From contig NC_083534.1 in NCBI RefSeq assembly GCF_032362555.1, forward strand, positions 3,767,001 through 3,831,000: a stretch of DNA of 64,000 nucleotides, read 5' to 3'. Below, one piece after another: positions 2,345-51,393 of the stretch (the stretch's first letter is position 1; the number at the start of each line of letters is the position of its first letter). The notes below the pieces were generated by a model. That model was not told where the DNA came from and did no database searches. It saw only the letters and a list, made by a program, of their open reading frames with translations. The stretch comes from Amyelois transitella (Eukaryota; Arthropoda; Insecta; Lepidoptera; Pyralidae). The position numbers and the translations under genes are program-made.

Positions 2345-12745
<10,401 letters not shown>

Positions 12746-18966: not shown

Positions 18967-20260
18967 TTTACCTTTTTTTTTAAGTGACAAACTCATTCAT
19001 TAGTTCATCAATAAACAAATAATCTATGTACAATTTTAATATTACAAAAAAAAAAAAAACAACATTTTGTTATCATATCCAACGATCTTGTTTCACGTCC
19101 CTCCACCATATCACATCATTTCATCATTATCACTCATTTTTATCAATACCTACGACTTTTAATTTCAAACAAAAACATTGGTAGGTACAAACACAAATTT
19201 TCAGCCGACTTTAAAAATGATAGTTATTTTTCAAAATTTTTAAACAAACAAATTTTTTACTTCGTACTTGCTCGGACCATCACAGCGAACAACTATTTCC
19301 ATGGAGGCCAATGTCGGTTTTAAAAAAGAATAGGACCACTCCATCTCTTTAAATAAAGATTATATAAAAGATCTAAAGAATTTAAATAGTGACAGGTTGC
19401 TAGCCCATCGCCTAAAAGAGGAATCACAAGTTTGTAAGCCTATCCCTTAGTCGCATTTTACGACATCCGTGGGAAAGAGATGGAGTGGTCCTCTTCTTTT
19501 TTGTATTGGTTCTGGGAACCACAGGGCATTAATTAAATATAAAATTTAATAATCAGAATTATTAAAAAAAAAGGACTTTTTGAGACTAACATAAGATGCA
19601 AATAGTAGTTGACGTTATTGAAGAAAATGCTGCAGTGTAGTTTGTTACCGCTTCTTCTGCACTGACGCTTTGGAAGCGGCAGTAAACTTAGTTTAAAATA
19701 ATTTATTCGACGTCAACCAATGTTTTGAAACCAAAAGATATGACAATTACCGAGTGATGTTTGAAAAGTCTTATAATAATAAATAAAAAAAAATTAATAA
19801 CATTATATAACGTTATTACAACGTAAACGTTATAACGTTTATTATAACGTTATTCAGTATAGTGACGTTAACATAACATTTGATTATTCCGATAAGAATG
19901 TTCGTTATTTTTTCAGTTACTTATAAATGCAAACTCTTTTAGAGGTGTTTTTAAAAATCCCCTATAAATTTTTATAGGCGATGAACTAGCGACCTGTCAC
20001 TATTCAAATCTCAATTCCATCATTGAGCCAAACGGCTGCACGTGACTTTTCACTCTTACCGAGACCTACTGTCTACCCCGCAACGGATAAACATCACTAT
20101 ATATATATATATATATAAATGCTGTATTTAAAAAAAAACTGGCGAGAAACACCTATAAATAATTATCGATTTTTAAGTTAGTCACTATAATTCTAAAGCC
20201 GCGTCTACATCGCCCGGACCCTGTCTCTAGATACAAAAACATTGTAACACGTGACACATC
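18967..20260. other. Spacer downstream of Gpat4
   Basis: It holds a minus SINE-A copy (19381-19528), a minus family X repeat (19603-19795), a palindromic AACGTTATAACG-type stretch near 19800-19860, a SINE-A fragment (19975-20100) and a TA microsatellite. No gene was found; the Gpat4 3' UTR lies at its right end. Confidence 0.45.
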
Positions 20261-20348
20261 TCACTCTCCCTTCAATCTCCTACTGAACTCTTCCTGTTGT
20301 AGTTCCCGCCATTCCTTCTTCGCTTTCATTCGTTTCAGTTGGCCGTCC
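20261..20348 (-). CDS. Gpat4: Gpat4 exon 11 (terminal)
   Basis: Completes the split Trp of WDGQLKR, continues with MKAKKEWRELQQEE and stops at TGA 20261-20263. The lysine-rich tail is like that of GPAT3/4. Confidence 0.9.
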
Positions 20349-23300
20349 CTGTGTAAAAATAAAGCGTATAAAAAATACGTTTAAGAAGCGCCGTGTGGTT
20401 CCCGGCACCAATAAAAAAGGATAGTAATAGAAGAAAAAACTTTTTTTTTAGTAAAACTATTTTTTATATAAAAAAATAACAACCAAAAACGAATAGGAAC
20501 ACTACATCTCTTTCCCATGGATGTAGTAACAGGTGACTGAAGGATAGACTTATGAACTTGGGATTCTTCTTTAAGGCGATGGGCTAGCTACCTGTCACTA
20601 TTTGAATCTCAATTCTATCATTAAGCCAAACAGCTAAAAATGGTATATTAGTCTTTTCGAGACTGTTGGCTCTGTCTACCCCGCAAGGGATATAGACGTG
20701 ATTATATGTATGTATAAAAGATTACTGATGTTCTCCTCAGTACTTCTAATGACTCAAGGCGTGCTTTGGTTTTGCCCACGCGTTCGTATACAGAATGAAC
20801 CCGTTATTACGATTCACGTGGGAATTTCGGGTAATCTCTCAGTGAGAAACACAATAAACACGTGAGAAACACAATAAACACGTGAGAAACACAAAAAAAC
20901 AAGTGAGAAACAAAAGAAAACAAGCGAGAAACACAATAAAAAAGTGAGAAACATCACAACTCACCACTGCAGATCAACTAGTCCACCCCTCCTCGCTATG
21001 TTCGCCTTCACTCTGTTAGCGAAGTCCACCGCAGACTCGTTTGCAGATCTGTGCATTGGCGGTAAGTACCTAAAAAAATATGAGTACGTAAGTAAGTGTG
21101 GTTCACGGCACAAGAGAATACGGCCACCTCTTTCCCATGGATGTCGTACAAAACGACTATGGGATAAAATTGAGACTACTCTTGTGGGCTATGTCCTGGC
21201 AACCTGTCGCCATTTGAATCTCTATGTCATCATTATCGCTTTCGCATTCTTAATATTAGATGGTATAATGTCTTATCAGATAATTGCCGTGTGATTTCAG
21301 ACACTTTACAAATAGGACCACTCTTTCCCATTGATGTCGTAAAAGGCGACTGAGGGATGGGCTTATAAACTTGCGACTCTTAGTCGATGGGCTAGCTACC
21401 TATCACCATTTGAATCTCAATTCTACACTACACTATTTGAATTTCTGTAATTTCAAGACAGTCGGCTCTGTCTACCCCGCAAGGGATGAAGACGTGATCA
21501 TATCATAACGAGCCTCACCAGACATCGCAGACGATGGCCCACGAACTCATCATATTCAACAGGTAATGAAGCATTCCGTAACGGGAGCTGTTCCAGAACG
21601 CGTCTCCGAAACGTGGGTCGTATCTGAAAAAAAATATATAAATATACATACATACATACGGTCACGTCTATATCCCTTGTGGGGTAGACAGAGCCAATAG
21701 TCCCGAAAAGACTGAATGGCCACATTCAGCTGCTCGGCTTAATGATGGTATTGAGATCCAAATAGTGACAGGTTGCTAGCCCATCGCCTAAAAAAAGAAT
21801 CTTAAGTTTGTAAGCCTATCCCTTCTTGTATACATATATCTATCTTATATATATATATATGTATATAAAAAAATTAAATCAATATGTTTTCTTATATATA
21901 TGGCGTTATGGTAAAACGTAGCAGGTAAGAGAGATGAACGCCGTGTGGTTCCCGGTACCAATGGCAAAAAGAATAGGACCATTCCGTCTCATTCCCATGG
22001 ATGACGTAAAAGGCGACTAAGCTAAGGGATAAGCTTATAAACTTGGGATTCTCCGTTTAGGCGATCGGCTAGCAACCTGTCACCATTTGAATCTCAATTC
22101 TATCGTTAATATTCAAGGTATAAAAATAAATAAATAAATACATATATACAGGACATATTACACTGATCGAGTCAGCCTCGAAGTAAGTTCGAGACTTGTG
22201 TTACGAGATACTAACTCAACGATACTATATTATACACAATAATAAATACTCACACAGAAAAAACATCCAAGACCCATCCCATTCAGAGAAAGTTCTTCAC
22301 TCATCACGCCCCGACCGGGATTCGAACCCGGGACCTCCGGTATCACAGACAAGCGTACCACCGCTGCGCCACAGAGGCCGTCCAGTAAAATAATTGTTTT
22401 TTTTTATTTTTGTTTTTTTTTATTGTTTTTTTTTATATATTTTTTAAGGTCCATCACTCACTTTATAGCGACCGGATATATAGTGCCGCCGACTTCAAAA
22501 CTGCCTTTCTTGAATTGCATGACCGAAGTGTTATTGATGCAGGTCCCCTCAGGAAATATAAGTATGGGTGGATTGTTCGGGTCAGCTATGTGTTCCGCTA
22601 GCCTGAAACATACACACATACATACGGTTCTCTATCTATTAGCATAAAATTTTGTGTCATAATTTTACATGGCATACCTTTGTTTAGCCTAATCATTGTT
22701 ACGCATAATATTATTTGGCATAAATTTTTAGGCATATTTCTTTAAGCATACCTACTATTAGCACAGCCTAACCTAACTTAAGAAGTACTCGTCTTATAGC
22801 ACATTACACTACATCTGCTCCGCGCAAAAAATTAATTAGTCTAAACTATATTTATGCCTATTGAAATAGTATGCCAAAACCAATTAGGCCAAAAAACTAT
22901 TATGACAAAAAATTGTATGCGTAACTCGTTATGCCAAACTAAAATAGGCCAAAAAAAAAAATTAGTCAAAGTCCCGGTAATGAGCCGGCGACTACTGCAC
23001 ATAGTATAAATATCACGTATTTTTACAACCTTACCTTTTAGCAACAGCATGTCTGTCTTTGACCTCCGACCTCTCGAACCAGATGTGGGGCGAAGCCCTC
23101 GCCAGCGCCCTCTGCAGGAGCCCTAGGAAGCCCCCGTGTCTCTGTCCTATCTAAAAAAATCGTAAGATATTTTTATATTAAAGTTTTCTTTTAAAATTAA
23201 TGATACGCCCCAAATTTAGTGAATGTTTAGTGGTTTTGTAGAAAAAATATTTATGAAAACCGAATTATAAAAGTTTTTTATAGTTTTTTTTTGTGAAAAA

Positions 23301-26300
23301 TATTAAAAATAAACAATTTATATTATTGCCTAACAATTTAAAATATCAAATTGATTGAAATTGGTTTAGTATGTGGCGACATCTCTACGCCACAAGTCAC
23401 AACAGCCAATAACAGCGAAGCATCTAAATCGCGCAAGCAAAGATTTCACAGATTATATAATCTCCGACACAACATCGTGTGTCGCGCGGTTCCCCAGGCG
23501 TCACACCAGCCTGCTGGGAGATCTTCCCTTTGGTGGCGGTCGAGCCGAATCATCGCTCACGCTACAAGTAATTTCGGAATCCATTTATGACATAAGTAAA
23601 TCGTGATACGCTTAATTTTTGTTTATAAATTGAATGTCCAATGAAAGATGCTTAAAAATTCTATTTGTTGAAATAATGTAGTTACATAAATATTACTCAC
23701 ATAATTCTTAAAATAACTATAAACTACCCGAGATGCATGCACAGTTAATGCAAAGCCCATATTGAGAATACATTTATTTATACCAAAAGCTTATTTACTC
23801 ATGAACTAAAAAAACCCCTATGAATTAGGTTAAAGTATTGAAATGAATGTTCCCCATGAACGATAGTATAAACGGCTCAAAAGCTTTCCTTCCACATTTA
23901 ATGAAATAATACCCAACGTTTACTTACCAATTGGAATTTTATTTAATAATTGCATTTTTAGTACATGTTGACAATTAAAATTGATTAATAAATTGCTTAA
24001 ATAAAGAGTTATTATTTAAAGTAATTATTGCAGAACTTAAACAGTAAAATTGTAGGCTAGGTATGGGCTAGCAACCTTTCGCGATTTGAATTTAAATTCT
24101 ATCTTAAAGCCAAATAGCTAAACGTGGCCTATCAGTCTTTTCAAGACTGTTGGCTCTGTCTACCCCACAAGGGATATAGAAGTGACCATATGTATGTATG
24201 TAAGTAATTATAGGAATTGTGTGTAAATTGTAGGCGATGGGCTAGCAACCTGTCACTATTTGAATCAATAAATTACTTCATTTAGTCATACAGCCAAACG
24301 TGGAATTTCCGTTTCTTTCTAGACTGTTTGCTCTGTCTATTCCTCATGGGATATAGACGTGACTATATGTATGTGTGTAAAATTGGGAGCGTAAGTAGTA
24401 TGGGACCAAATATAGACCCCTGAGGGGACCCTACGACATTCCATGTATGTTTTGTTCAATAAGTATAAATTATGAACAATGCATAGCCAGATAACTAACA
24501 ATTGATTTACAAATACGACGTAAATATATGATTTTGATTAACGATTCAAAAAAATTATTCAAATATAAAAATAATATTCTATCGAAAGCTTTTAACAAAT
24601 CCTTTTATCAAAAAAAATTATAAGTAACAACATAACTGACTATTAACGTAAAACTAAAACCACTCAATATATATTACTGAAATTTGTAATGTAGACAGGT
24701 ATGATTTTTAAAAGCAAGCAAAAAAAGTTGACAGATTTGTTTGTGCCGTGTGGTTCCCGGCACAAATATAGAATACTACCCGGCATAAATCTTATAGGCG
24801 ATGTGTTAGCAACCTGTCACTATATGAATCTCAATTCTATCATTAAGCCAAACAACCGAACGCAGCCTTTCAGTTTTTCAAGACTATTAGCTGTGTCTAT
24901 ATCGCAAGGGATACAGACTTGCCTATTTATTATATATGTATGTATGTATGTAAAATTTCTCACTAATTACCTAACAAAAGTTAATAAAGAATCAACACGA
25001 CGACGACATCTGAGACTATATACAAAAAAAAAATCCACTCACCAAAGAATAACAGCTGTCGCACATCAAAACGAGCGCGTCAATGGGACTCGTATGATTC
25101 GCGACGCAGATACCACCCCTGGGCTTGTTCCTCGCGTCGTGATACGTGATCACGGCCGATATACAGCGGGAGAGGAAGTTGAAACACATGATCGAAACGG
25201 CGTAGTTCACGCGCTGTTTGAAACGACCGTCCGGCAGGGTTCCGATGCACGCGGTGCAAACAATAAGCCACCAGACCTGTACCCGATGAGATAAAGCGTG
25301 ATGGTGTAACGCGACAATGATTGGGGTGGCTCGCTTTTTTGACAGATATAGGGTGTTAACTTCGGACATTGTCAGGACATTCAAGTGTCATTGAAATTGA
25401 CACCCTATACAGCTGTCAATAAAGAAGCATCTCGATTGCCCGGGAAGCAAATCTGTACATATATATATGTATATACCCACATTATATATTGCGTGTAGAA
25501 GTGACCCATTTTTTTTTAATATGTTCTCTACGTATAAGTCCTTTAGAGATTTATAAGAGGCCAATTCAGGTCACTTTTTAAAATTTTTAAATAACAATAC
25601 TGAAAAAATTCTTTATAGAATACAATTAAAAAAAAAGTGCCACTTCCACCCACATCCCCCCCCCCCCCCCCCCACACATGCTTTAAACACTTCACATTAA
25701 AAATAAGGGGACAAACACAAAAAAACAAAAACCCTGAAAAAAAAAAACTGAATACTACCAAAGAGTAGCAATTGTTAATGCTCAACACGGCAACATCGAT
25801 CGGACTGGTGTGGTTGGCAACACAGAAGCCGTTCTTTTTCGGCATGTACTCCAAGTTGTGGAAGGTCGCCACACACGAGAGACTTCTGATCATAATTCTG
25901 TTGGACATTTTGTATGATATCTCGCCGAAGAACAGGCGTATGCGGCCGCGTGGCAGGCAGCTCACCAGGGTGGTGGTAATTATTGTTGTGTACACCTGGT
26001 GTTGCCATTAGGTAGTTTAAAAAAAAAAGGAAAAAAAAATAAATTGTTAGCGCTAGTGTTATTAAAAAAAAGTCGTCATTTTAGGTAAAGTCTGGCACAG
26101 GCATTCTCTCTGTGGTTTCAAGACTATTTTTTGAGCAATTTTTTATATTTTTATATAAATTCAATACTATGCTAATATTATAAAGCTGAAGAGTTTGTTT
26201 GTTTGAACGCGCTAATCTCAGGAACTACTGGTTCGAATTGAAAAAATATTTTTGCGTTGAATAGACCATTTATCGAGGAAGGCTTTAGGCTATATAACAT

Positions 26301-27810
26301 CACGCTGCAACTATAAGGAGCGAAGAAATAATGGAAAATATGAAAAAAATGGAGGAAATTTTTCATCCTTGAGGGCTTCAATGATGCCCAATATAACTAT
26401 TCCACGCGGACAAAGTCGCGGGCAAAGCTAGTGTGCAATTAAGGTTACATTCGTAAAAGGCGACTCAGTGATAGACCAATTAACTTGGGATTCATTTCGT
26501 AGGCGATGGGCTAGCAACTTGTCACTATTATGAATCTCAATTCTATCATCAAGCCAAAAAGCTGAACGTCTCATATCAGTCTTTTCAAGACTGTTGGCTC
26601 TGTCTTCCCCGCAAGTTAATATTCTATTCAACATCACGAATGCCTTTCGTGCCGACTACCTAAGATATAAATTAAACAACATGTTTTGTTAGTAGATAAT
26701 TAATAAAAAATATAAAAAAAAAATAACTAACCCCAATAACGAAGATGAGTATCCTGAGTGGCAACAAGAACATGTATCTGACGATGAAACCCATCGCCCA
26801 GATTATGGTCAGGCGCCATGTCAGGAACTCATATTGTCTGAAACAAAAGATAATGATATAAACTAATATACAGGGTGACATTTAAATCAACTGCATCCTT
26901 TTAAATATAGACTATACCCATGCTTCTGAGCCGTTTGAGCCTATTTTTATTTAAATTAAACGTCATCATTTTCACATTTAAAAAACCCTCAAGAACTACG
27001 TCACACGCTTTATTAAAGACCAATACTACAAAAAGAAATTAAAACTAAACATGTAAATAAATGTCTCAAAAATAAATTATTTTTCTAGTATCAAGATCAA
27101 GTAAAGTACAGAGTTGTCGAGATCGCTCAGCTGAATGGATCGTAGATTTTGATACTTTTATTTTTTTCGTTATTTCTGAAATATGAACCGATATTTTTCT
27201 TTTAACGTTTTTAAATATCCTTTAGATGAGTACACTTAACAGTTAAATTTATGCAGTTGAATTAAAAGTCACCCTGTATAGACTCAATACTTTTAATCCG
27301 CCATGCCTCTTTGATTATGGATTTTCCTTTTTGTTTTGGTTGACTGGAAGAAATCCCGATTGGGATAAGTCCGCCAGTGTACATATTCTTCTATATCCAA
27401 TGACTGTTCTATTTTTGTTATATTTATTTTTATATGCAATAAAGAGTTTACAAACAAACAGGATTATAACATTATGTACTTACAAAGAGGTTATAACGTA
27501 CTTGTGCCGTGTGGTTCCCGGCACCAGTACAAAAAAGAATAGGACCACTCCATCTTTTTCCCATGGATGTCGTAAAAGGCGACTAAGGGATAGGCTTACA
27601 AACTTGGGATTCTTTTTTCATCATTATATTGAATACCTGTTGGTCCTGGTGAGTAAGTTCCAACTCCTCAACTCTTCGGCTTCGAAGACCGACGTCACCT
27701 GATCCTCAATGATGGACTCCATGCCAGCTTTAACCAGGTCCAGCGAGTGAGACAGGTGGAACTCCAGGTTTACCTGAAAATAAAATAAAAAAAAAACATC
27801 ATATTAATAT

Positions 27811-27855
<45 letters not shown>

Positions 27856-30800
27856 TAATAAATATACATATATTCAAAATAATAAAACGCATAATATAGT
27901 GTTTAAAATAATATAAATATTGTAATTCCCATTGATGTACATAGTTTGTAAGACACTCTGTTACTAACACTATATAGGTTTTTATTAAACCTGAAATAAA
28001 TGATTTTTATTTTTATTTATTTTATAAAGCTATATGTAGCCTTTCGGTATTTCAGAGACTGTTGGCTCTGTCTACCCCGCAAAGGATGTAGATGTCATTA
28101 TTTAAATTTTTGTAGATAAACATCACCAATATCGGAAAAACTTAATTTTCCATCATGACCTGACCGAGGATCGAATGAAAAGAACCTGAGACCTTCTTAT
28201 TCAAAGACTTCGTTTCACCGCGGACGAAGTCACAGGTGTAAGCTAATAAATAAACTGTTTATTGATGAACTTATGCATAGGTTTGTCATACATACATATA
28301 GTCACGTCTATATCCCTTGCGGGGTGGACAGAGCCAACAGTCTTGAAAATACTGATAGGCCACGTTCAGCTGTTTAGCTTACTGATAGAATTGAGATTCA
28401 TATAAAGTGACAGGTTGCTAGACCGTCGCCTAAAAAAAGAATCTCTACGCCTTAGTCGCCTTGTACGACATCCATGGGAAAGAGAGGAAGCGGTCCTATT
28501 CTTTTTCCTATTGAATAGAATAGAATAGAATAAGATTTATTTTCAAAATTGGATACAAGGTATCACTTATTGACGTCACATAACTTCAATCTAATTATAA
28601 CTACTATCGCTTCCAAAGCGCATGTGTAGAAGAAGCGGCGGAACAAACTACACTGCAGCATTTTCATCGGTCGTCAATTTACAAATATATATCTCTTAAA
28701 TCTTAATCGTCGACGAATGCACATTGTCTACATTAAAAAAAAAGAATGAATGTAGAACTAACTTGTTAACGTAGTTGGTGGTGGGAACTACAAGGCGCAT
28801 CAATTATTGGTTTTTCACTTGAATATATATATATTATATGCTCACCTCATTCTTAAGCTCTTTATGACCGTTTTGCATACGCTCTTGACTGGAACTCCTC
28901 TTGTAGTTCAACTCTGGCGATGGACCTAGTATCTCCTCCCTTTCTATCACCGTCATCTTTGTACCTGTAAGAGAGAGATGGATATATATATGTATATTTC
29001 AATATCCCATATTCTATACATTTCATCAATATATACTAACTAGAGGCCGCCCGCGACTTCGTCCGCATGGAAACCCTATCAATCCTGAGGGAAATCTGGG
29101 ATAAAAAGAAGCCTATATGTTTTTCTGGATCTTCAGCTACCTACATACCAAATTTCATCGTAATCGGTTCAGTAGTTTTTGCGTGAAAGAGACAAAAATC
29201 CACACTGCCATCCTGACCTTTTCACAAACTTTCGCATTTATAATATTAGTAGGATATATATACAATTATACCAATAGGAAAAAGAATAGGACCACTCCTT
29301 CTCTATCCCAAGGATGTCGTAAAAGGCGACTAAGGGATAAGCTTATAAACTTGGGACTCTTCTTTCAGGTGATGGGCTAATAACCTGTCACTATTTGAAT
29401 CTCAATTGTAACATTAAGCCAAAGAGCTGAGCGTGGTCTTTCAGTCTTTTCCACAATGCAGTTTCTGTCTACCTCATACATACACACATAAAATCACGCG
29501 TTTTTCCCAGAGGGGTAGTCATAGACTACATCTTTCCACTTGCCACGATCACTGCATACTTCCTTCGCTTCATGCACATTAATAAATCTCTTCTTGCAAG
29601 CTTCGGGTACCCTTGACCTGACCCTTTGCCAGGACGTCCTTAATTTGATCAAGACACGTTCGTCTAGGCCTTCCCACTCCGACCTTTCCCTCCACACTCT
29701 CCTTGTACATCTGCTTAGTCAACCTGCTTTCATTCATCCTCTCCACATGACCACAGGTGCCCATCGGCGCGACCTGTGTCCACAAAAACTTTGAATACCC
29801 TATCTTAGAAAAAAATTAATAAAATAAATAAATAAATATATACGGGACAAATTACACTGATTGAGTTAGCCTCGAAGTGAGTTTGAAACTTGTGTTACGA
29901 GATACTAACTCAACGATACTATATTTTATAATAAATACTTATAAAGATAAACATCCAAGACCCAGGCCAATCAGAAAAAGTTCATTTTTCATCATGCCCT
30001 GGCCGGGATTCGAACCCGGGACCTCCGGTCTCACAGACAAGCGTACTGCCGCTGCGCCACAGAGGCCGTCAATTGCCAACATATGTAATGCTTAAGCATA
30101 TAAAAAAAAAAACCATCTTAACATACCCTACCTCGAGATAGTGATAAACACGTGATTGAATGTGTGATTGAAACAATAAAAAACAAAATCACGCGACGCT
30201 ATCAGTCAAAAGCAGCGAGAAACCTAAATCGCGCAAGATTTCACGGATTGTAGCATATATATTGTGCCGCGTGGTTCCCGGCACCAATACAAAAAAGAAT
30301 GGGGCCACTCCATCTCTTTCCCATGGATGCCGTAAAAGGCGACTAAGGGATAGGCTTACATACTTGGGATTCTTTTTTAGGCGATGGGCTAGCAACCTGT
30401 CACTATTTGAATCTCAATTCTATCTTAAAGCCAAATAGCTGAACGTGGCCTATCAGTCTTTACAAGACTGTTGGCTCTGTCTACCCCGCTAGGGATATAG
30501 ACGTGATCATATGTATGTATGTATGTATCCCAACCCCCTAGTGGTCCAGGCCGCAAACTACACCCCAAGACCAGATGCCCCGTCGCGCCGCCGACGCCCG
30601 AGGAATGTGCTCCATGATCCGGACGACCCCATCACGGTTGCCAACCGCCCCCCCCCCCCATAACCCTGCGCCCGCCAGGAGGCAAGGATATCGACACCGT
30701 CCCCATCGCAACCACCAGAACAGTGAGCGAGAAGTAGCTCGTTCTCCAGGTACCGCAATGTACCTGGGCGCTTCACGCCGACACGATAGGCCCTTAAGGT

Positions 30801-33800
30801 AAGGTTAGTCAAGATAAAACCCTTAAGGTTGAGCGTTGCATCCGCTAAGGACAAATTACACAGATCGAGTTAGCCTCGAAGTAAGTTCGAGACTTGTGTT
30901 ACGAGATACTAACTCAACGATACCATATTTTATTATAAATACTTATATAGATAAACAGGTCAATCAAAAAAACCGGGACCGGGATTTTAACCCGGGACCT
31001 CCGGTGTCACAGACAAGCGTAGGTACTACCGCTGCGCCACAGAGGCCGTCGAAAATAATAATTTTAACGATTAATTCGTCGTATACAAAGAAGGTTGACT
31101 ATAAATGTATATCATTCAGAGATATTGCCTACATAGGTCGGACAAATTGTATTTATTTAACTGTACAGTTTATCGGCCATTACATTATTACAATACATTT
31201 ACAATTTCAAAACAATACAATTACGTTTTTTATTGTTGACTTAAGTCAGTCGAACACGACATGTGACTTCAATTCATGATTATTTATACTAACCGTTGCA
31301 CGAGGAGCTCTTTATACTGTTACGTCTATATACCTTGCGGGGCAGACGGAGCCGACAGTCTTGAAAAGACTGATGGCTGCGGCTTTATGATGGAATTGAC
31401 ATTTACAAATATAGATCTCTTAAATCTATACTAATATTATAAATTTGAAGAGTTTGTTTGTTTGTTTGAACGCGCTAATCTCAGGAACTACTGGTTCTAA
31501 TTGAAAAATTCTTTTTGCGTTGAATAGACCATTTATCGAGGAAGGCTGTAACTATTAAGAGCGAAGAAATAATGAAAATGTAAAAAAAACGGGGGAAATT
31601 ATTCATCCTTGAGTGCTTCAATGATGCCCAATACAACTATATTCCACGCGGACGAAGTCGCGAGCACATCTAGTCTCTCAAATATATAATCTATAACAAA
31701 GTAATACAATGTTATACAGTAGAGTTATGAATGTGGATGAAGCGAAGGAAGTATGCAGAGATCGTGGCAAGTGGAAAGATGTAGTCTCTGCCTACCCCTC
31801 CGGGAGAGAGGCGTGATTTAATGTATGTATGTAAGTAATACAACAAGTTTGATCATTCTTACCGTTACTCCCATTCTCCTTGATGATGGCAGAAGGTGGT
31901 TTATCATCAGGCACTGGCGGTTCCTCTTCATCATCAGAACTGTCGCTCCTGTTCACCTTCCTTGCTACTTCTATATGCTGTCGACCGTACTGTTACAGAC
32001 AAAAATATAGGTTATTATACATACATATATATTTAATTAATAACATCTATTAACCCTCGCGGGGTAGACAGAGTCAACAATCTCGTAGAAATTGAGAGGC
32101 CACGTTCAGCTGTTTGACTTGATGTTAGAATTCAAATTCAAATAGTGACAGGTTGCTAGCCCATAGCTCAGAAGAAGAATCTCAAGTTTATAAGCCTATC
32201 CCCTAGTCGCCTTTTACGGCATCCATGGGAAAGGATGAAGCGAAGGAAATATGCAGAGATCGTGGCAAGTGGAAAGAGGTAGTCTCTGCCTACCCCTCCG
32301 GGAAACAGGCGTGATTTTATGTCTATGTCTATTTTTCTTTTAACGTTTTTAAATATCCTTTAGATGAGTACACTTAACAGTTAAATTTATGCAGTTGAAT
32401 TAAAAGTCACCCTGTATACACACATATACATATATTTATACACATATTTCTCAACGTGAGCCTATTAAATTTATTACGAGAGAACAGTATACATACATAC
32501 ATACATATATTAACTAAGAACACGCACTATCCAACTGCTTTATCAGCGACCTTCTAACGACCCTCAAGATGCAATCCTAAGCATCTAGTTTAATCATCAA
32601 TTATTCTAATAAGGAAATTCGAATCGGCAACTAGAACGCATACTGACTTACATTACATACATACATATAATCACGTCTATGTCCCTTGCGGGGTAGACAG
32701 AGCCAACAGTCTTGAAAAGACTGACTGACTTACTGTTTAAGTATTAGACACCTTCTATACATGTTTACTCTACTAGCTGTGCCCGCTACTTCGTCCGCGT
32801 ACATATATCGATTCGTCGAACAATAAACATCTTTAATTTATCTCCAATACTCCCAACGCTGTATGTATAAATTGTAGTACCTGGGTGACCGATTAAGGCG
32901 ACTGGCTAGCAACCTGTCACTTTATATGAATCTCAATTCTGTCACTAAGCCGAACAGCTGAACGTGGCCTTTCAGTATCTACAAGACTGCTGGCTCTGTC
33001 TACCCCGCAAGGGATATAGACGTGACATTTATGAGGCGTAAGTATTTATTATAAAATATAGTATCGTTGAGTTAGTATCTCGTAACACATGTCTCGAATT
33101 TACTTCGAGGCTAACTCGATCTGTGTAATCTGTCCCGTATATAATTATTATTTATATGTATGTATGTATGTATTAAAAACCTTTTAACTAATATTTGTTT
33201 GTCCATTTAACGCGTGTTTGTCCAAAGATCGCTGGCCCATCGGCTTAACGTGTGTTATCGCGTGATAACAGCCGGAACCGTTTATAATGTCCACCTAAAT
33301 CCAACGTTGTTGATATAACTTATCAATCATTAGCCGGGCCTAAGGTGGATTGATATCTATACTAATATTATAAAGCTGAAGAGTTTGTTTGTTTGATCGC
33401 GCTAATCTTAGGAACTACTACTACTACGGTTGGAATTGAAAAATTCTTTTTGCGTTGAATAGACCAATATATCGAGGAAGGCTTTGGGCTATATAACATC
33501 ACGTTGCAACTATGAGGAGCGAAGAAATAATGGAAAATGTGAAAAATAACAAGGAAAATTATTCATCCTTGAGGGCTTCAATGTTGCCCAAAATAACTAT
33601 TCCACGCGGACGAAGTCGCGGGCACAGCTAGTCACACAGCTAGTTACTCTTTCACGCAAAAACTTCTAAAGCGATTACGATGAAATTTGGTATGTAGGTA
33701 GCTGAAGACCCAGAATAACATATAGATAACTTTTTATACCGGAGTTCCCGCGGGATTTATAGGGTTTCCATGCGGACGAAGTCGCGGGCGGCCTCTAGTA

Positions 33801-36800
33801 TTATTATATAAGTGCGAATGTTTATGTTTGTTTATTGTCTTTTCACGCGTTATCTACTGAATTAATCTTTTTGAAGCATACATACATACATAGTTCACGC
33901 CTCATTCCCGGAGGGGTAGGCAGAGACTACCTCTTTCCACTTGCCACGATCCCTGCACACTTCTTTCGCTTCATCCGTATTCATAACTCTCTTCATGCAA
34001 GCTCGGCGGTTTCGGGTACTCTTGACCTGACCCTTTGCCAGGACGTCCTTAATTATATACATACATATATTCACGTCTATAACCCTTGCGGGGTAGAGAG
34101 AGCCAACAGGCTTGAAAAGACTGAATGGCCACGTTCAGCTATTTGGCTCAACGATTGAATTGAGATTCAAATAGTGACAGTTGCTAGCCCATCGCCTAAA
34201 CAGAATCCCAAGTTTGTAAGCCTATCCCTTAGTCGCCTTTTTCGACATCCATGGGAAAGAGATGGAGTGGTCCTATTCTTTTTTTTTATTGGTGCCGGGA
34301 ACCGCACGGCACTCTTACTTACACGTTACTTGGTATAATGGCGAAAAACACAACCTGCCTTTGTGTAGTCGGATAAATTAATAATGTCTGTGCATTTGTA
34401 AACAGAATGACCTCTAAACTCTAGTCACGTGGCGGGAAACTGATATTACTAATAAGCTAATTGCAGTGTCCAAGTTATGTTTTAGACTTTGAAGTTTAGG
34501 CGATCGGACATACATACATACATATATATATATATAACCACATCTTTATCCATTATATTGCGGGGTAGACAGAGCCAACTGTCTTGAAAAAGAAAGGCCA
34601 CGTTCAGCTATTTCCATGCATATAATCACGTCTATATACCTTACAGGGTAGACAGAGCCAACTGTCTCGAAATGACTGAGATTCAAATAGATCGCTAGTC
34701 CATCGCCTACAAGAGGAATTCCAGACTTTTCGGCCTTCCCCTTAGTCGCCTTTTACAACATTCACGGGAATGATATGGAGTGGTCCTTCTCTCAAGTGCC
34801 GGTAACCACACGACATTAATGAATAAGAGAGGTTAATAAACTCATTTCATTTATTAAAAAAAAGCGAGCAATGACATTTGACTATGGTACACAAAAAACA
34901 ATAGATAACACTAATTTGAAAACTAATTTTAAGCAACACTAATTTTTCGTAACATGATGCCGTGCGGTTTTCGTCACTTCAGAATGGAACCACTCCGTTT
35001 CTTTGGATGTCGTTCCTATGGATGTCGTAAAAGGCGACTAAAAGGATAGTCTTATTAACTTGAGATTCTTCTTCTAAGCAATGGGACTAACAACCTGTCA
35101 CTATTGAATCTCAATTCTATCATTAGCCCTAATAGCTTAACATAGTCTTTCAATCTTTGCAAGACTATTGACTTGACACTATTAATCCTGCAAGGGATAT
35201 ATACGTGACTAGCTGCGCCCGCGACTTCGTCCGCGTGGAATAGTTATTTTGGGCATCATTGAAGCCCTCAAGGATGAATAATTTCCCCCGTTTTATTCAC
35301 ATTTTCCATTATTTCTTTGCTCCTTATAGTTGCATCGTGATATTTTATAGCCTAAAGCCTTCCTCGATAAATGGTCTATTCAAAGCAAAAATAAATTTCA
35401 ATTTGAACCAGTCATTCCTGAGATTAGCGCGTTCAAACAAACAAACTCTTCAGCTTTATAATATTAGTATAGATATAGATTATATGTATGTTTATAAACA
35501 AATACAGTTTTTCACAAATCCCACGGGAACTAATTTTTACCAGGATGAAAGGTATCCTGTGTCCTTCTTCAGAAATTTCAAGATATTGGTTCAGTAGATA
35601 ACTCATGCAGAGGTAACAAACAAACAAACAAACTCACTTTCACATTAACATTATTAGTTGGGTTTATTTGCATAATGTAGGCATATCATATATTTTTATA
35701 TTGATATCTGTTGAAAATGTTTTAAAAGATATAACTGAATTGCTTATCAGCCGAGAGATTAAAGGATTAATGATTATCAAAACAACTGGAGCCCCCAACC
35801 AATACACATTAGTACTACATACATACATACATATGATCACATCTATATCCCTAGCGGGGTAGACAGAGCCACCAATCTTGATAAGACTGACAGGCCATGC
35901 TCAGCTGTTTGGCTTAGTGATAGAATTGAGATTCAAATAGTGATAGGTTGCTAGCCCATCGCTTAAAAGAGGAATACCAAGTTTATAAGCCTATCACTTT
36001 GTCGCCTTTTACGACATCCGTGGAAAGGAGATAGAGTGGTTTTTGTAATGGTGCTGGGAACCGCCCGGCAGGCCCTTCTGACAAAAATATAACAATTTCC
36101 TGATTGGTCTGTGTAATGACTAATGGGTTAATATTTATTACTAGTATTTTTTTTTGTAAAATATTACATTGACTTATTTTATGCCAGTGTGGTTCATTCA
36201 ATATAAAAAAAAATTATTTGATCTTTTGTTATATTACAGAAAACATGGTCATTAAGTCTTGTAACTACTACCTTTGCCTAGCCCTTAAAAAATTAAAATG
36301 TAGGTACATAATCTGTGTGTGTATGTGTGTATCAAATTTAATAAGATAAAAAGCATTTTTCCATTGAGTCTTTTGAAGACAATTGGCTCTGTCTACCCCG
36401 CAAGAGATATAGACGTGATTATATATATATGTATGAATGTATGTATGAGAATATTTCGTATCTTTTTTTTCTAAAAAAATACTTAGATTACTGCATTGAT
36501 TTTTATGAAGTTTTAAACAGATTCCTACAAGAGTGGGCGATTAAGATTTTAGCCTTACTCCTTCGAGAAGGTCAAACCTTCAAGCAGTTTTTAGTGGAAC
36601 TTAAACTTTGAAGCTAAAAGTTGAGAATAAGAGTTCTATTCTTAGAAATATGTTTACAAACACATGTATGATCTGATCGATTTCCGGCGTTTTACGTCTA
36701 ATTCTCAAGATGATGTCACACGATTAACACAAACCATGTTTAACATTTGGAGTTAAAACCAATAACATCGTGCTTCGTTAAATGAGTCATTAAATATTTG

Positions 36801-37142
36801 AAGGAACAACGTAGGGTTTAAATAACATAACCTTATCTTAAAAAGATGTAGAACTCATGATAAGTAAACATAGCTCATAAAAAGCAAAAAAAACAAGGTA
36901 GATAGGAATATTTAGTATGTATTAAATATGGATAATTATTCATAAATTAAAGATATTATTTTATTATTGTAAAAAAAAAAATATCTTACCTCGAATAGCT
37001 TGAGAAGAATGTTTACATAGAGACGCCTTACGCCGAGGGATTTACCAATAGATGCTAGGAAAATAACACATAAAATTAGAAGCAAAAACGGTGTGTACAA
37101 AATAGAAATTGCGACCGACACAATCGGCATGAGTAACGCCAT
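20261..37142 (-). CDS. Gpat4: Glycerol-3-phosphate acyltransferase 3/4, gene span (11 coding exons plus one alternative exon)
   Basis: This ER membrane enzyme makes lysophosphatidic acid from glycerol-3-phosphate and acyl-CoA, the first step of triacylglycerol and phospholipid synthesis. Exons in transcript order are 36990-37142, 31863-31989, 28846-28964, 27637-27773, 26732-26837, then 25759-25995 or 25043-25276, then 23035-23150, 22462-22602, 21519-21623, 20965-21069 and 20261-20348. All phases fit and give 476 or 477 aa, against about 450 in vertebrate GPAT3/4. An N-terminal hydrophobic segment (residues 5-35), a second around 195-225, catalytic NHTSPID (His275, Asp280), PHIWFERSE and FPEGTC (347-352) are visible. 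The conserved AEELRSWNLL precedes the membrane segment. It diverges from ATPsynE. Confidence 0.95.
20391..20715 (+). repeat. SINE-A copy with internal AT-rich insertion
   Basis: The head (GCCGTGTGGTTCCCGGCACC) is separated from the body at 20483 by about 60 bp of A/T runs. Confidence 0.75.
20841..20955. repeat. 20-bp tandem repeat
   Basis: Six units of GTGAGAAACACAATAAACAC, degrading to the right, begin 10 bp inside the intron after Gpat4 exon 10. Confidence 0.85.
20965..21069 (-). CDS. Gpat4: Gpat4 exon 10
   Basis: Reads WYLPPMHRSANESAVDFANR then VKANIARRGGLVDLQW. Acceptor TTTTTTTAG, donor GTGAGT. Confidence 0.92.
21098..21499 (+). repeat. Two partial SINE-A copies
   Basis: A diverged head and middle (21098-21225) is followed by a second copy from GCCGTGTGATTTCAG at 21286 to GACGTGATCATAT, which stops 20 bp from Gpat4 exon 9. 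Confidence 0.65.
21519..21623 (-). CDS. Gpat4: Gpat4 exon 9
   Basis: KYDPRFGDAFWNSSRYGMLH then YLLNMMSSWAIVCDVW, the conserved segment after FPEG. Acceptor TTTTTTTTCAG, donor GTGAGG. Confidence 0.93.
21647..21828 (-). repeat. SINE-A, 3' two thirds
   Basis: (CATA)n tail sits 24 bp upstream of the exon 9 acceptor. Confidence 0.75.
21939..22112 (+). repeat. SINE-A, 5' two thirds
   Basis: Begins GCCGTGTGGTTCCCGGTACC and stops before the GGCTCTGTCTACC block. Confidence 0.75.
22127..22380 (-). repeat. SINE-T, full-length copy
   Basis: Minus oriented, with intact A and B boxes at its right end (GGTTCGAATCCCGG). Confidence 0.85.
22462..22602 (-). CDS. Gpat4: Gpat4 exon 8
   Basis: RLAEHIADPNNPPILIFPEG then TCINNTSVMQFKKGSFEVGG. 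It carries the FPEGTC acyltransferase motif that binds the glycerol-3-phosphate side. Confidence 0.95.
22650..22990. repeat. Fold-back region with GGCATA / TATGCC motifs
   Basis: The left half has repeated GGCATA-type motifs and the right half TATGCC and AGGCCAAAA motifs, in an imperfect fold-back. Related sequence (TTTGGCATAACAATCGTTCC) lies near 17155. Confidence 0.45.
23035..23150 (-). CDS. Gpat4: Gpat4 exon 7
   Basis: IGQRHGGFLGLLQRALARAS then PHIWFERSEVKDRHAVAKR, acyltransferase block II. Confidence 0.93.
23355..23590 (+). repeat. Unclassified repeat, fullest copy
   Basis: Shares TCTAAATCGCGCAAGCAAAG and TCTTCCCTTTG(G/A)TGGCGGTCGA with the interrupted copy at 4735-5140. Confidence 0.55.
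24058..24380 (+). repeat. Two adjacent SINE-A 3' portions
   Basis: Both start at the GATGGGCTAGCAACCT block and end in ATATGTATGTATG-type tails (24204 and 24380). Confidence 0.75.
24743..24953 (+). repeat. SINE-A with central deletion
   Basis: Head GCCGTGTGGTTCCCGGCACA joins directly to the later GGCGATGTGTTAGCAACCTG block. Confidence 0.7.
25043..25276 (-). CDS. Gpat4: Gpat4 alternative exon 6b (acyltransferase motif I)
   Basis: 78 codons, phase 0 at both ends: VWWLIVCTACIGTLPDGRFK, then a conserved stretch to GGICVANHTSPIDALVLMCD and CYSL. Acceptor GTACAG, donor GTGAGT. It is closer to the canonical GPAT4 sequence (ITYHDARNKPRGGICVANHT) than exon 6a. Confidence 0.93.
25759..25995 (-). CDS. 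Gpat4: Gpat4 alternative exon 6a (acyltransferase motif I)
   Basis: 79 codons, phase 0 at both ends: VYTTIITTTLVSCLPRGRIR, then to NGFCVANHTSPIDVAVLSIN and NCYSL. Acceptor ACACCAG, donor GTAGTA. It is an open, diverged paralogue of exon 6b only 0.5 kb away and keeps His and Asp of the NHxxxxD motif. Including both would duplicate half the active site, so mutually exclusive use is likely. Confidence 0.88.
26170..26431 (+). mobile_element. Helitron-like element H1
   Basis: Starts near TAATATTATAAAGCTGAAG and ends GTCGCGGGCAAAGCTAG before a T. Confidence 0.75.
26450..26615 (+). repeat. SINE-A, 3' two thirds
   Basis: Starts at the GTAAAAGGCGACT block; the (TATG)n tail is lost. Confidence 0.65.
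26732..26837 (-). CDS. Gpat4: Gpat4 exon 5
   Basis: RQYEFLTWRLTIIWAMGFIV then RYMFLLPLRILIFVIG, the membrane segment before the catalytic domain. Acceptor GTTTCAG, donor GTTAGT. Confidence 0.9.
26871..27276. mobile_element. TA-flanked TIR MITE (CAGGGTGAC ends)
   Basis: Ends CAGGGTGACATTT and AAAAGTCACCCTG are inverted and flanked by TA. It is almost identical to 44958-45435, which has an extra internal block of about 70 bp. A 3' end piece is at 32330-32414. It lies 33 bp from the exon 5 acceptor. Ends and TA target fit the Tc1/mariner superfamily. Confidence 0.75.
27330..27440 (+). repeat. LINE 3' end fragment
   Basis: Contains GACTGGAAGAAATCCCGATT and GGATAAGTCCGCC, the end of a jockey/CR1-like LINE, judged by memory of the family. 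Confidence 0.5.
27503..27618 (+). repeat. SINE-A, 5' head
   Basis: Truncated at the GGGATTC block, 20 bp from Gpat4 exon 4. Confidence 0.75.
27637..27773 (-). CDS. Gpat4: Gpat4 exon 4
   Basis: VNLEFHLSHSLDLVKAGMES then to AEELRSWNLLTRTN; the AEELxSWNLLxRTN stretch is diagnostic of GPAT3/4. Confidence 0.93.
28286..28508 (-). repeat. SINE-A copy
   Basis: Full except for the last 5' bases; a family X LINE-like repeat (28513-28750) abuts it. Confidence 0.75.
28846..28964 (-). CDS. Gpat4: Gpat4 exon 3
   Basis: TKMTVIEREEILGPSPELNY then KRSSSQERMQNGHKELKNE, a hydrophilic serine-rich cytosolic linker. Acceptor TCTTACAG, donor GTGAGC. Confidence 0.88.
29040..29254 (-). mobile_element. Helitron-like element H2
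   Basis: Minus orientation: TCCTACTAATATTATAAATG start, ATGCGGACGAAGTCGCGGGC hairpin and GGCCTCTAG end. It shares the hairpin core with H1, but the body differs (CAGTAGTTTTTGCGTGAAAG). Confidence 0.75.
29272..29475 (+). repeat. SINE-A without its first 25 bp
   Basis: Ends abruptly where a minus LINE-R fragment begins. Confidence 0.7.
29478..29785 (-). repeat. RTE-like LINE, longest 3' coding fragment
   Basis: The minus frame reads GHVERMNESRLTKQMYKESV, GKVGVGRPRRTCLDQIKDVL and DEAKEVCSDRGKWKDV-type sequence. The GHVxRM...GRPRxxWxDxI pattern is the end of an RTE-type reverse transcriptase. Confidence 0.75.
29836..30068 (-). repeat. SINE-T, full-length copy
   Basis: Well preserved, with CCCGGGTTCGAATCCCGGCC on the minus strand. 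Confidence 0.85.
30263..30527 (+). repeat. SINE-A, full-length copy
   Basis: Runs from GCCGCGTGGTTCCCGGCACC to a (TATG)4 tail and interrupts an unclassified repeat (30207-30255). Confidence 0.85.
30536..30830. other. GC-rich island in Gpat4 intron 2
   Basis: About 270 bp of markedly GC-rich sequence with a C9-10 run, unlike the AT-rich flanks. Both strands have short open frames, rich in Arg/Pro or Gly, with no recognised domain. It could be a transposon fragment. Confidence 0.4.
30847..31049 (-). repeat. SINE-T copy with internal deletion
   Basis: The segment between the body and the B box is shortened (GTTTTTTTGATTGACC). Confidence 0.75.
31425..31673 (+). mobile_element. Helitron-like element H1
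   Basis: Starts TCTATACTAATATTATAAAT after an A, ends GTCGCGAGCACATCTAG before a T. Confidence 0.8.
31722..31832 (+). repeat. RTE-like LINE 3' end
   Basis: Short copy with GAGGCGTGATTTAATG and (TATG)n, 31 bp from Gpat4 exon 2. Confidence 0.7.
31863..31989 (-). CDS. Gpat4: Gpat4 exon 2
   Basis: YGRQHIEVARKVNRSDSSDD then EEEPPVPDDKPPSAI, an acidic linker. Acceptor GTAACAG, donor GTAAGA. Confidence 0.85.
32033..32325. repeat. Chimeric SINE-A (-) joined to LINE-R 3' end (+)
   Basis: The minus SINE-A (32033-32236) switches within ATCCATGGGAAAG to plus LINE-R sequence (GATGAAGCGAAGGAAATATG) ending in GCGTGATTTTATG. Confidence 0.7.
32330..32414. mobile_element. 3' end of the CAGGGTGAC MITE
   Basis: The last 85 bp, ending AAAAGTCACCCTG, is fused to the LINE-R tail. 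Confidence 0.65.
32651..33025. repeat. SINE-A pieces
   Basis: Minus 3' end at 32651-32725, and a plus copy at 32895-33025 from the GGCGACTGGCTAGCAACCTG block. Confidence 0.65.
33036..33142 (+). repeat. SINE-T, 3' body
   Basis: Head missing; ends TCTGTCCCGTATATAAT and is followed by (TATG)n. Confidence 0.7.
33356..33798 (+). mobile_element. Helitron-like H1 (33356-33631) followed by truncated H2 (33640-33798)
   Basis: H1 is complete (TCTATACTAATATTATAAAG to GGCACAGCTAG). The adjoining H2 lacks its 5' end but keeps the hairpin and CTCTAG. Start-like sequence of a further Helitron family (TATAAGTGCGAATGTTT) follows to about 33870. Confidence 0.75.
33878..34055 (-). repeat. RTE-like LINE 3' end
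   Basis: Joined directly to a minus SINE-A, so the two tails are adjacent. Confidence 0.75.
34057..34314 (-). repeat. SINE-A, full-length copy
   Basis: Tail to GGTGCCGGGAACCGCACGGC. Confidence 0.85.
34510..34812 (-). repeat. SINE-A, 3' fragment then a diverged copy
   Basis: Two tails at 34510 and 34617; the second continues to a worn 5' end (GCCGGTAACCACACGAC). Confidence 0.65.
34959..35209 (+). repeat. SINE-A, diverged copy
   Basis: Ends abruptly at ATACGTGACTAG where Helitron H1 begins, so one element inserted at or replaced the tail. Confidence 0.7.
35209..35473 (-). mobile_element. Helitron-like element H1
   Basis: CTAG end at 35209-35212, TC start at 35472-35473. Confidence 0.8.
35816..36070 (-). 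repeat. SINE-A copy
   Basis: Near full length; a 3' fragment of a plus copy lies at 36360-36450. Confidence 0.8.
36990..37142 (-). CDS. Gpat4: Gpat4 exon 1
   Basis: 51 codons from ATG: MALLMPIVSVAISILYTPFL, a long hydrophobic stretch, then GVRRLYVNILLKLFE. This matches the N-terminal membrane hairpin and the GxRxLY motif of GPAT4. Donor GTAAGA. Confidence 0.93.
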
Positions 37143-37566
37143 TTTGACGACTGATTGAAGTTTTTAATTTTGCGTGACATGCTGAATTTTTTCATGTCAA
37201 TGTCATATGGTGCAAAACTAACAGTCTAGATGGCGATGCATGATACTGAAGGAAAGTGGATGAAATGATCAAATGGAATGAAGATCTATTATTCTTCATT
37301 GCACTGTACTCTAAAATTCAATTACTTTAATCAAGTCTTTAATTAAAACGTATAGAATAATTTTGAATTAATAATGAAAACGTTAAAAAGCATTTTGTTG
37401 TTGTTGTCATAATTGTAGTTTCTTTACCTGTACTCTTGCAACACCAATGTAATACTGTCACTGTCTCAATCTCACTCAAAATTAATTTCTTAGGTTTTGT
37501 GGGGGACATTGAAAGAAAAGATTTCTTATAAAATCTTATTTCCCTATTACATTACCAATAATTAAA
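37143..37566. promoter_or_regulatory. Bidirectional promoter region, Gpat4 / ATPsynE
   Basis: The two start codons face away from each other across 424 bp, so both 5' UTRs and core promoters must lie here or in upstream introns. No clear TATA box is placed. It is one of the few stretches without recognisable repeats. Confidence 0.6.
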
Positions 37567-37617
37567 ATGTCTGATCTTCCTTACGGACCCCCAGTGCGAG
37601 TTTCACCACTCATCAGG
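37567..37617 (+). CDS. ATPsynE: ATPsynE exon 1
   Basis: 17 codons, phase 0 end, donor GTAATT. Confidence 0.9.
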
Positions 37618-39322
37618 GTAATTATAATTGTTTTATCAAATAAAATCTATCATTATGTAACACTATTTTTCAAATTGCTCATCAATTATTTTGTGCTTTG
37701 GAACATTATTTTGAGGTACATCAATAATTAGACCGTGTAATCATGCCAATTTTCATATTTCCAGTTAGCACTTAAGTAGTAAATCACCAGAAATAAAAAT
37801 TATGTTTTCTTAACCTTTTTGTCAGCCAGGGTATTGGCAAGTTGAAGCCTTGTGTTTTGTAAGCACTTCACCTCTTTTCGCATGATTATGTAGCTAAGAT
37901 GAAGAAACTTCTTGTATGTTTTACCCACGTTTCACAAACAAACTTAGTAAAGATGGTTGCTATTTGATAGCTGGTGGAAGTATGTTGCTCCATTGGGAAT
38001 TTCAGAGCAAATTCACATTGAAATATAAACATTGCAGAAAAAAGATGAGCAAGCTTGCATGATGAGGTTATTATTGGACATATCAAACAACATATGTCTC
38101 TGGTTTCACAACATTGGTCGATGTCAAATAAATAACTTAAAATCACTTGCAAAGCGTCAGCATAGAAGAAATAGTAACCTAGTGCACTGCAGCATTTTCT
38201 TAAATAACGTCAACTTCACATTAATTTTCCAAACATAAAATTTTAATTGAAATGTGGACTGAGAGAATACATTGTTATGATAATTGTTTTAATTAAATAT
38301 TATATAATTTTATTTAAATAATTAAATGAAATTCCCTTGTCAATTTCAGTTTAGCCGTTACTCCCTCCTTGGTGCCGGCATTCTCTACGGGGCGTTCCAC
38401 CAGAGCAGGCTCTCCAGGAAGGAAGCTAAGTTCCGTGAAATCGAAGCCAAGGAGAAGGTGATCCGCGACGAAAAGCTGAAGAAGGAGAAAGCGTTGGCTG
38501 CTGCCGGTGGGTTTGTTTAACATACATACATACATAAAATCACGCCTCTTTCCCGGAGGGGTAGGCAGAGACTACCTCTTTCCACTTGCCACGATCTCTG
38601 CATACTTCCTTCGCTTCATCCACATTCAGAACTCTCATTCGTATAACATTCATACATATAACGGTTTGTTTAATTTGTTATTTATAATATTCTTGAAGCC
38701 AACAGTCTTAACAAGAATGTTGGCTCTGTCTACCCTGCAATGGATATATACATGATTATATGAATGTATTTATGTGTATAATATTATTATGAATACACTA
38801 GCAGCTTAAAGCTGATGCATGTAAAGTAAATGTCCGTGCAGGAAATTTTTTAAGTGTTGGCACTTGGAGCACTTATCCCTTGCGTGGTAATCAGAGTCAA
38901 CGGTCTTGATAAGCCTGAAAGGCCGCATTCAGCTGTATGACTTAATGATGGAATTGTGATTAAAAAAGTGACAGGTTGCTAGCCCATTGACTACAAGAGG
39001 GATCCCAAGTTTATAAGCCTATCCCTTAGTCGCTTATTACGACAAATGGATGTCGATGGGATAGGAAAGATATGGAGTGGTTCTATTCAAAAGTGACAAG
39101 AACCCCATATCAGTAATTTATCCAATTTCAATGTTAAAACTATGACCTCACACACTCGTTTTTGTCCTGATTGCACCCTCTGTCATCCCGGGTCTTTGGG
39201 TCCTCTACGCTATAATAAGATATATCTGCTATGATTTTGACAAAATTTTCACAAACCACGTTTTTTATTACTTTTCAGCTGAAATCAAGTCATTGGAAGA
39301 GATGGTGGCGCCTAAAAAGTGA
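37567..39322 (+). CDS. ATPsynE: ATP synthase subunit e, gene span (3 exons, 83 aa)
   Basis: This small inner-membrane subunit of mitochondrial F1Fo-ATP synthase supports dimer and cristae formation. Exons are 37567-37617, 38350-38506 and 39279-39322, and phases join as 0 and then 1. The N terminus MSDLPYGPPVRVSPLIR matches the PPVxVSPLIK signature. A single membrane segment follows (YSLLGAGILYGAFHQSRL) with the dimerisation GxxxG motif at Gly27-Gly31. The rest is a charged helix (KEAKFREIEAKEKVIRDEKL) and a short tail, EEMVAPKK. Length agrees with insect homologues of about 80 aa. Confidence 0.93.
38098..38275 (+). repeat. LINE 3'-UTR-like repeat (family X)
   Basis: Contains TGGTTTCACAACATTGGTCG and CACTGCAGCATTTTCTT; a second family member near 7218. 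Confidence 0.55.
38350..38506 (+). CDS. ATPsynE: ATPsynE exon 2
   Basis: Acceptor AATTTCAG. It ends one base into an Ala codon at donor GTGGGT, 14 bp before a LINE-R insertion (38521-38638). Confidence 0.9.
38521..38638 (-). repeat. RTE-like LINE 3' end
   Basis: Short minus copy; a plus SINE-A tail follows at 38695-38775. Confidence 0.75.
38870..39108 (-). repeat. SINE-A, diverged copy
   Basis: Lacks the tail and has a worn 5' end. Confidence 0.65.
39279..39322 (+). CDS. ATPsynE: ATPsynE exon 3
   Basis: Encodes EIKSLEEMVAPKK and stops at TGA 39320-39322. Acceptor CTTTTCAG. Confidence 0.9.
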
Positions 39323-51162: not shown

Positions 51163-51392
51163 GTGAGTATTTATTGTTTCACATTTCTAACATTGTTACT
51201 GGTGATTATTGTAGCATAAATGCTAAGCATTCAAAGTAATATTCTTTTTTGAACTAATCTCGACGAGTTTTTAACCTAGAATTTTATTTACGGAAATGTT
51301 TCTAGTCGGGCAATGCCGGTCGCGCTGACCGGTATTACCCGCATGTAAAATAAGTAAAAAATATTGTTATTTATGTTTGTTTATTATTAAAG
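51163..51392 (+). other. Probable 5' UTR intron of the pogo transposase
   Basis: Donor AAGAG/GTGAGT at 51162-51163 and acceptor TATTAAAG at 51391-51392, two bases before the ATG. Confidence 0.6.
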
Positions 51393-51393
51393 A

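Follow-up and report, generated by a model that had tools for sequence, protein, structure and literature searches.

Two tandem, probably alternative exons carrying the catalytic motif of a GPAT3/4-like acyltransferase gene in the moth Amyelois transitella

A GPAT3/4-like acyltransferase gene of Amyelois transitella contains two homologous neighbouring versions of exon 6, here called 6a and 6b, each of which carries the catalytic NHTSPID motif. Judging by their sequences, the two exons are probably used one or the other per transcript, and exon 6a has the appearance of an ancient alternative exon kept under constraint rather than of debris. The gene lies in a stretch of 64,000 nucleotides (contig NC_083534.1, positions 3,767,001 to 3,831,000), which was analysed as a whole and is referred to below as the window; all positions are those of the window unless another contig is named.

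In the scheme that we propose, exon 6 of a GPAT3/4-like gene was duplicated in tandem long ago, and each copy supplies the end of a hydrophobic segment together with the catalytic HX4D motif (NHTSPID). The spliceosome would place only one of the two, 6a or 6b, between exons 5 and 7, the choice probably being set by weak splice sites and trans-acting factors. The gene would thereby make two enzymes that have their catalytic motif in common and differ in its membrane-facing and motif-I surroundings.

The acyltransferase gene and its doubled exon

The gene is located on the minus strand and has at least 11 coding exon positions, which run from about 37142 down to 20261. Exon 1, the first coding exon (36990–37142; MALLMPIVSV...LLKLFE, donor GAG/gtaaga), was read by eye and from its open reading frame, and its join to exon 2 was assigned from phase only. 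Exons 2 to 11 were joined by script; the frame was kept at every join, with AG and GT borders throughout, and a stop codon closes exon 11. On the basis of frame and splice-site fit, exons 2 (31863–31989), 3 (28846–28964) and 4 (27637–27773) were placed upstream of the pair, and exons 7 (23035–23150), 8 with the FPEGT motif (22462–22602), 9 (21519–21623), 10 (20965–21069) and 11 with the stop codon (20261–20348) downstream of it. The common upstream partner of the pair is exon 5 (26732–26837; placed by frame fit, with a single genome match), which has a hydrophobic stretch at its end and ends in phase 0, and the common downstream partner is exon 7 (IGQRHGGFLGLLQRALARASPHIWFERSE...), which starts in phase 0.

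Exon 6a, the upstream alternative exon (25759–25995, minus strand; 237 nt, 79 codons; ...KKNGFCVANHTSPIDVAVL...CYSL), is supported by its open frame, its homology and its codon usage. Exon 6b, the downstream one, occupies 25043–25276 of the same strand (234 nt, 78 codons; ...NKPRGGICVANHTSPIDALVL...CYSL) and has the donor gtgagt. The positions, lengths, open frames and peptides that the initial annotation had given for the two exons were reproduced exactly, and so were the common borders and phase that it had ascribed to them: both are preceded by AG, followed by GT, and in phase 0 at either end, each starting with a Val codon and ending with ...TCT TTG/GT. Each of them can join exon 5 to exon 7, and since those partners end and start in phase 0, either exon completes the protein, which from exon 2 on has 426 aa with 6a and 425 aa with 6b. 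In their adjacent internal position, similar length, shared phase and GT-AG borders, and in their homology (31 of 78 residues identical, E 1.3e-10 genome-wide), the two have the characteristics of a tandem exon cluster. Their GC content is 49% and 54%, respectively, versus 32–36% in the flanking introns. A stop-to-stop frame of 199 codons, antisense to exon 6b (24695–25294, plus strand), is probably a by-product of the codon usage of this exon.

The spliced proteins from exons 5 to 11 match the Pfam family PF01553 (Acyltransferase) with 98.5 bits in the 6a form and 97.7 bits in the 6b form, where the cut-off is 23, and even the exons alone score above it (25.3 bits for 6a and 24.2 bits for 6b). 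The HX4D motif, said in the initial annotation to be common to both exons as NHTSPID, is indeed present in each, and either isoform has FPEGT downstream in exon 8. The description of the motif flanks as widely different agrees with the residue identity of 31/78, but the two exons fit the acyltransferase profile equally well. Pfam names the family only Acyltransferase, and the GPAT3/4 name is given tentatively, by likeness to the vertebrate proteins. The likeness to GPAT3/GPAT4 of the LPLAT/PlsC superfamily consists in the PF01553 match, the NHTSPID and FPEGT motifs, and an N-terminal hydrophobic segment. Compared with human GPAT4, exon 6b is identical at 39/75 positions and 6a at 31/76, figures that serve as a lead only. 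The closer match of 6b suggests that 6b may be nearer the ancestral state, and the duplication may be very old. Vertebrate GPAT3/4 genes are not known to have an alternate motif-I exon.

Among solved structures, a two-row profile of 6a and 6b matched only PlsC, and weakly (5kym, E 0.016), and neither exon alone gave a match at E <= 1. With the 245-aa spliced segment there were 13 matches, one of which was again PlsC 5kym (E 0.51); the other 12 were to designed or consensus proteins over approximately residues 156–188 and were taken as spurious. A MARVEL match of exon 6b alone was rejected as well, as it fell below the Pfam cut-off (18.9 versus 32.8 bits).

Exon 6 is the only one of the checked exons that occurs twice. 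When the 6b peptide was used as a query against the 327-Mb genome, a search in which only the best candidates were scored, the only matches at E <= 0.001 were 6b itself and 6a (the latter at 1.3e-10), and the reciprocal query with 6a recovered, besides its own position, 6b at E 2.9e-10 and a match no better than chance (E 0.27, with two stops). A 296-aa query consisting of exons 5–11 in the 6b form gave ten genome matches. Six of them were single matches to exons 5 and 7–11, two were 6b and 6a, and the remaining two were weak relatives on contig C10 (1589703–1589879 and 9855138–9855353 of that contig; 36% and 32% identity), probably further acyltransferases from this superfamily. The profile of the 6a/6b pair detected no third copy of exon 6 in the window (next best E 0.18), and no convincing second copy of any of the nine exons 2–5 and 7–11 was found there either, the next best match (E 0.012) being to the acidic exon 2. 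As exons 5 and 7–11 are single in the genome and exons 2–4, which were checked in the window, are single in it, a tandem duplication of the gene was ruled out. An assembly duplication or haplotype artefact was ruled out because the copies have only 50% of their bases in common. Searches of bacterial, archaeal and viral collections for relatives of the exon pair or the gene returned 13, 84, 1, 7 and 24 pattern-matching stretches, and none was confirmed, as expected with collections that are prokaryotic and viral.

Several other features were noticed in the window. Copies of a dispersed repeat (families D1–D4) occur in intron 5 and in the 6b–7 intron (24054–24380, 24792–24940 and 26497–26615). 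Within positions 20000–38000, which were scanned with RF00005, two tRNA-like matches of 31.9 bits each lie in introns of the gene (22307–22378 and 29995–30066, both on the minus strand); from their repeated surroundings, they are probably the heads of SINE-type repeats. A transposase-like gene is represented by a 646-residue stop-to-stop frame with a match to Pfam DDE_1 (90.4 bits; 51391–53331, plus strand), and a frame at 3477–3824 (minus strand), which matches part of the aldo/keto reductase family PF00248 with 29.1 bits, is probably an exon of another gene.

Divergence of the two exons and constraint on exon 6a

Exons 6a and 6b are identical at 31/78 residues and 117/234 bases (50%), and their differences are distributed over the three codon positions as 36, 32 and 49. 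The proportions of nonsynonymous and synonymous differences are pN 0.42 and pS 0.78. A pS this high means that silent sites are near saturation, which indicates an old duplication and also that a true dN/dS cannot be given. All but one of the 31 identical residues are encoded by degenerate codons, and at 21 of these 30 positions the codons differ. The block CVANHTSPID is identical in the two exons even though nine of its ten codons differ, with nine base differences that are all synonymous. Nine changes placed at random did not yield this result in any of 200,000 placements, starting from either exon.

These observations bear on whether exon 6a could be an unused relic of the duplication, open by chance, with 6b alone being spliced in. 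The open frame is not decisive by itself: when 117 changes were introduced uniformly, about 5% of trials retained an uninterrupted frame (P(no stop) 0.05), and with composition-biased replacement from 6b P(no stop) was 0.022, so that survival in 2–5% of trials makes an open frame alone weak evidence. The nearer match of human GPAT4 to 6b (39/75 versus 31/76) and the weak donor and acceptor of 6a, described below, would also suit a relic. The preserved amino acids would not. The observed identity was reached in none of 20,000 uniform trials from either exon, P(identity) in the composition-biased model from 6b was 0.00045, and the motif block has nine synonymous differences and no amino-acid-changing one. 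Moreover, the codon usage and Pfam score of 6a are as good as those of 6b. Codon log-odds were 0.26 bits per codon for 6a and 0.25 for 6b, versus a maximum of −0.06 among 2000 random overlapping 237-nt draws from the introns of the gene; as the other exons supplied the codon table and these introns the background, the gap between exons and introns is somewhat flattered. We therefore consider it very improbable that 6a is a relic. When only half of the divergence is assumed to have accumulated without constraint, the composition-biased model gives P(no stop) 0.116 and P(identity) 0.99; under this assumption neutrality would be compatible with the data, and the amino-acid identity is then not unusual. 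From these comparisons we conclude that, over most of the time since it arose, 6a has evolved under constraint at the protein level.

The choice between exons 6a and 6b

A transcript with both exons would encode 504 aa from exon 2 on, and one with neither 347 aa, without an internal stop in either case. As the initial annotation had stated, joining both exons duplicates motif I; with neither exon this motif would be missing, and hence neither transcript is likely to make a normal enzyme. As both are in frame and without a premature stop, nonsense-mediated decay (NMD) or the reading frame was ruled out as the enforcer of the choice. Incompatibility involving the minor spliceosome was ruled out from the ordinary GT-AG borders, as judged by eye. 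The intron between 6a and 6b is 482 nt, a length that is sufficient for normal splicing and probably too great for steric exclusion, which was judged unlikely. This intron also contains 18 consecutive G residues as read on the minus strand, or C on the plus strand (25656–25673).

The open frame of the both-exon transcript and an intron of generally adequate length would also allow for a less strict arrangement, in which 6a is a cassette sometimes included together with 6b, giving a repeated motif-I segment. This seems improbable to us, as a hydrophobic segment and a catalytic motif would then be duplicated within a compact fold, and as homologous exons of equal length and phase are rarely constitutive or cassette exons in the fly. 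The same length, phase and splice-site pattern together with homology are the marks from which mutually exclusive exons were predicted by Pillmann et al. (PMC3228551), and in that study only 90 of 16,180 other exons of the fly X chromosome have them. Of the 65 internal exons predicted in this way, only 26 then carried such an annotation, a proportion that tempers the prediction for 6a and 6b. We prefer the reading, already put forward in the initial annotation, in which probably one exon is used per transcript.

The splice sites of 6a are poor. Its acceptor, with 3 T and 10 pyrimidines among 18 positions, is the poorest of the 11 that were scored, as the other acceptors have 7–15 T and 11–16 pyrimidines; exon 6b has 7 T, and the nine other exons have 8–15. 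The 6a donor, gtagta, is poor as well. The T-poor acceptors of both exons and the gtagta donor fit regulated exons, but they also count against an efficient use of 6a.

A very stable hairpin in the 6a–6b intron (25330–25425, minus strand), whose 3' end lies approximately 55 nt upstream of exon 6b, is the one mechanistic lead on the choice between the exons. Its folding energy is −34.9 kcal/mol, compared with −15.2 (sd 3.0) for shuffled sequences (z −6.6), and it had the lowest z, about −6, of 468 overlapping windows between 20.2 and 32.0 kb; the whole 204 nt upstream of exon 6b gave a z of −4.3. This 204-nt segment matched only itself in a genome search that skips common words, and the left arm of the hairpin had one genome occurrence within two mismatches, as did a control pattern read backward. 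The hairpin is possibly a candidate splicing element, or possibly the remnant of a small palindromic transposon, and its involvement in exon choice is only a tentative suggestion. Docking and selector pairing among intron 5, the 6a–6b intron and the 6b–7 intron (the first 600 nt of its 1.9 kb) did not clearly exceed shuffles in four comparisons with six shuffles each; the value for intron 5 and the 6b–7 segment was −28.4, against −28.0 for the best shuffle, a margin that is too small.

The devices proposed for exclusivity, as listed in a study of such systems (PMC6071210), are short introns, incompatibility of U2 and U12 sites, NMD and RNA structures that compete, of which the first three do not fit 6a and 6b. 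The insect genes discussed there (14-3-3zeta, Mhc, MRP1 and Dscam) resemble the gene described here in having homologous neighbouring internal exons that are nearly equal in length, agree in phase and are both kept open, and, as in those systems, NMD does not sort exons whose lengths are divisible by three. They differ from it in that one-of-two use is predicted here, and in that no clear docking/selector pair was found, a single strong local hairpin lying before exon 6b instead. Another likeness is to the insect chitin synthase CHS-A, a membrane enzyme with two interchangeable exons (59 aa each, with a transmembrane segment; PMC2561029); unlike in CHS-A, the segment exchanged here also contains the catalytic motif, and the product is glycerolipids, not chitin.

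In the fly, CG3209 is dGPAT4 (PMC5035145), and its exon CG3209:4 belongs to a network of exons whose use fluctuates during development, where it stands in a column of top regulators (PMC4603746); this table does not say that CG3209:4 corresponds to the exon considered here or that its use is mutually exclusive. For the Bombyx GPAT of PMC5389035, the authors use the name GPAT1-like, and it is thus another gene. Alternate exons of insect GPAT4 were not named in the titles and abstract openings among the literature matches listed. The tandem exon layout is already known, and it is found here in a lipid-synthesis enzyme. A survey of mutually exclusive exons in the fly was reportedly published by Hatje and Kollmar in 2013. 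The exon pair may already be catalogued in the fly, and annotated isoforms may well exist.

Possible consequences of the exchange

Exon 6 covers the end of the hydrophobic stretch that begins in exon 5, modelled as helical in a low-confidence model, together with the HX4D motif; the fold obtained for 6a from the two-row alignment had a pLDDT of 51 and was unusable. In the rest of the exon, beyond CVANHTSPID, the two copies agree at only 21 of 68 positions. The residues directly after HX4D differ (VAVLSINN in one exon versus ALVLMCDS in the other), and so do the crude amphipathic moment (0.37 for 6a and 0.68 for 6b) and the net charge (+5 and +3, respectively). The swap may, at less than an even chance, change acyl-CoA preference, the association with membranes or lipid droplets, or tissue use. 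The proposal of the initial annotation that the exchange tunes acyl-CoA or tissue use appears to be a reasonable guess.

It is conceivable, at somewhat less than an even chance, that the exons are mutually exclusive and that the swap alters the association with membranes or lipid droplets and not catalytic preference. The exon begins inside the hydrophobic segment common with exon 5, and the low match outside the motif and the differing amphipathic moment and charge would fit such a role; the fly dGPAT4 was followed by antibody in a lipid-droplet study (PMC5035145). However, the residues after HX4D differ too, which makes a catalytic effect equally possible, and we would give an effect on catalytic preference and one on membrane location a similar, rather low probability each. 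The most far-reaching possibility, an insect glycerolipid enzyme in which the exon with the HX4D motif and its membrane-facing support is exchanged under tissue or stage regulation, alters the acyl chains that enter storage fat or membranes, and is chosen by a hairpin rather than by docking and selector sequences, would be unlikely to hold in full.

Glycerolipid synthesis is committed at the step that GPAT catalyses, and the finding is of interest in that the segment being swapped contains the active-site motif of this enzyme. Exons 6a and 6b represent a natural experiment on the surroundings of a fixed catalytic motif. If a single insect gene swaps the motif-I exon, splicing could determine how fatty acids are divided among storage fat, membranes and, in moths, the precursors of pheromones.
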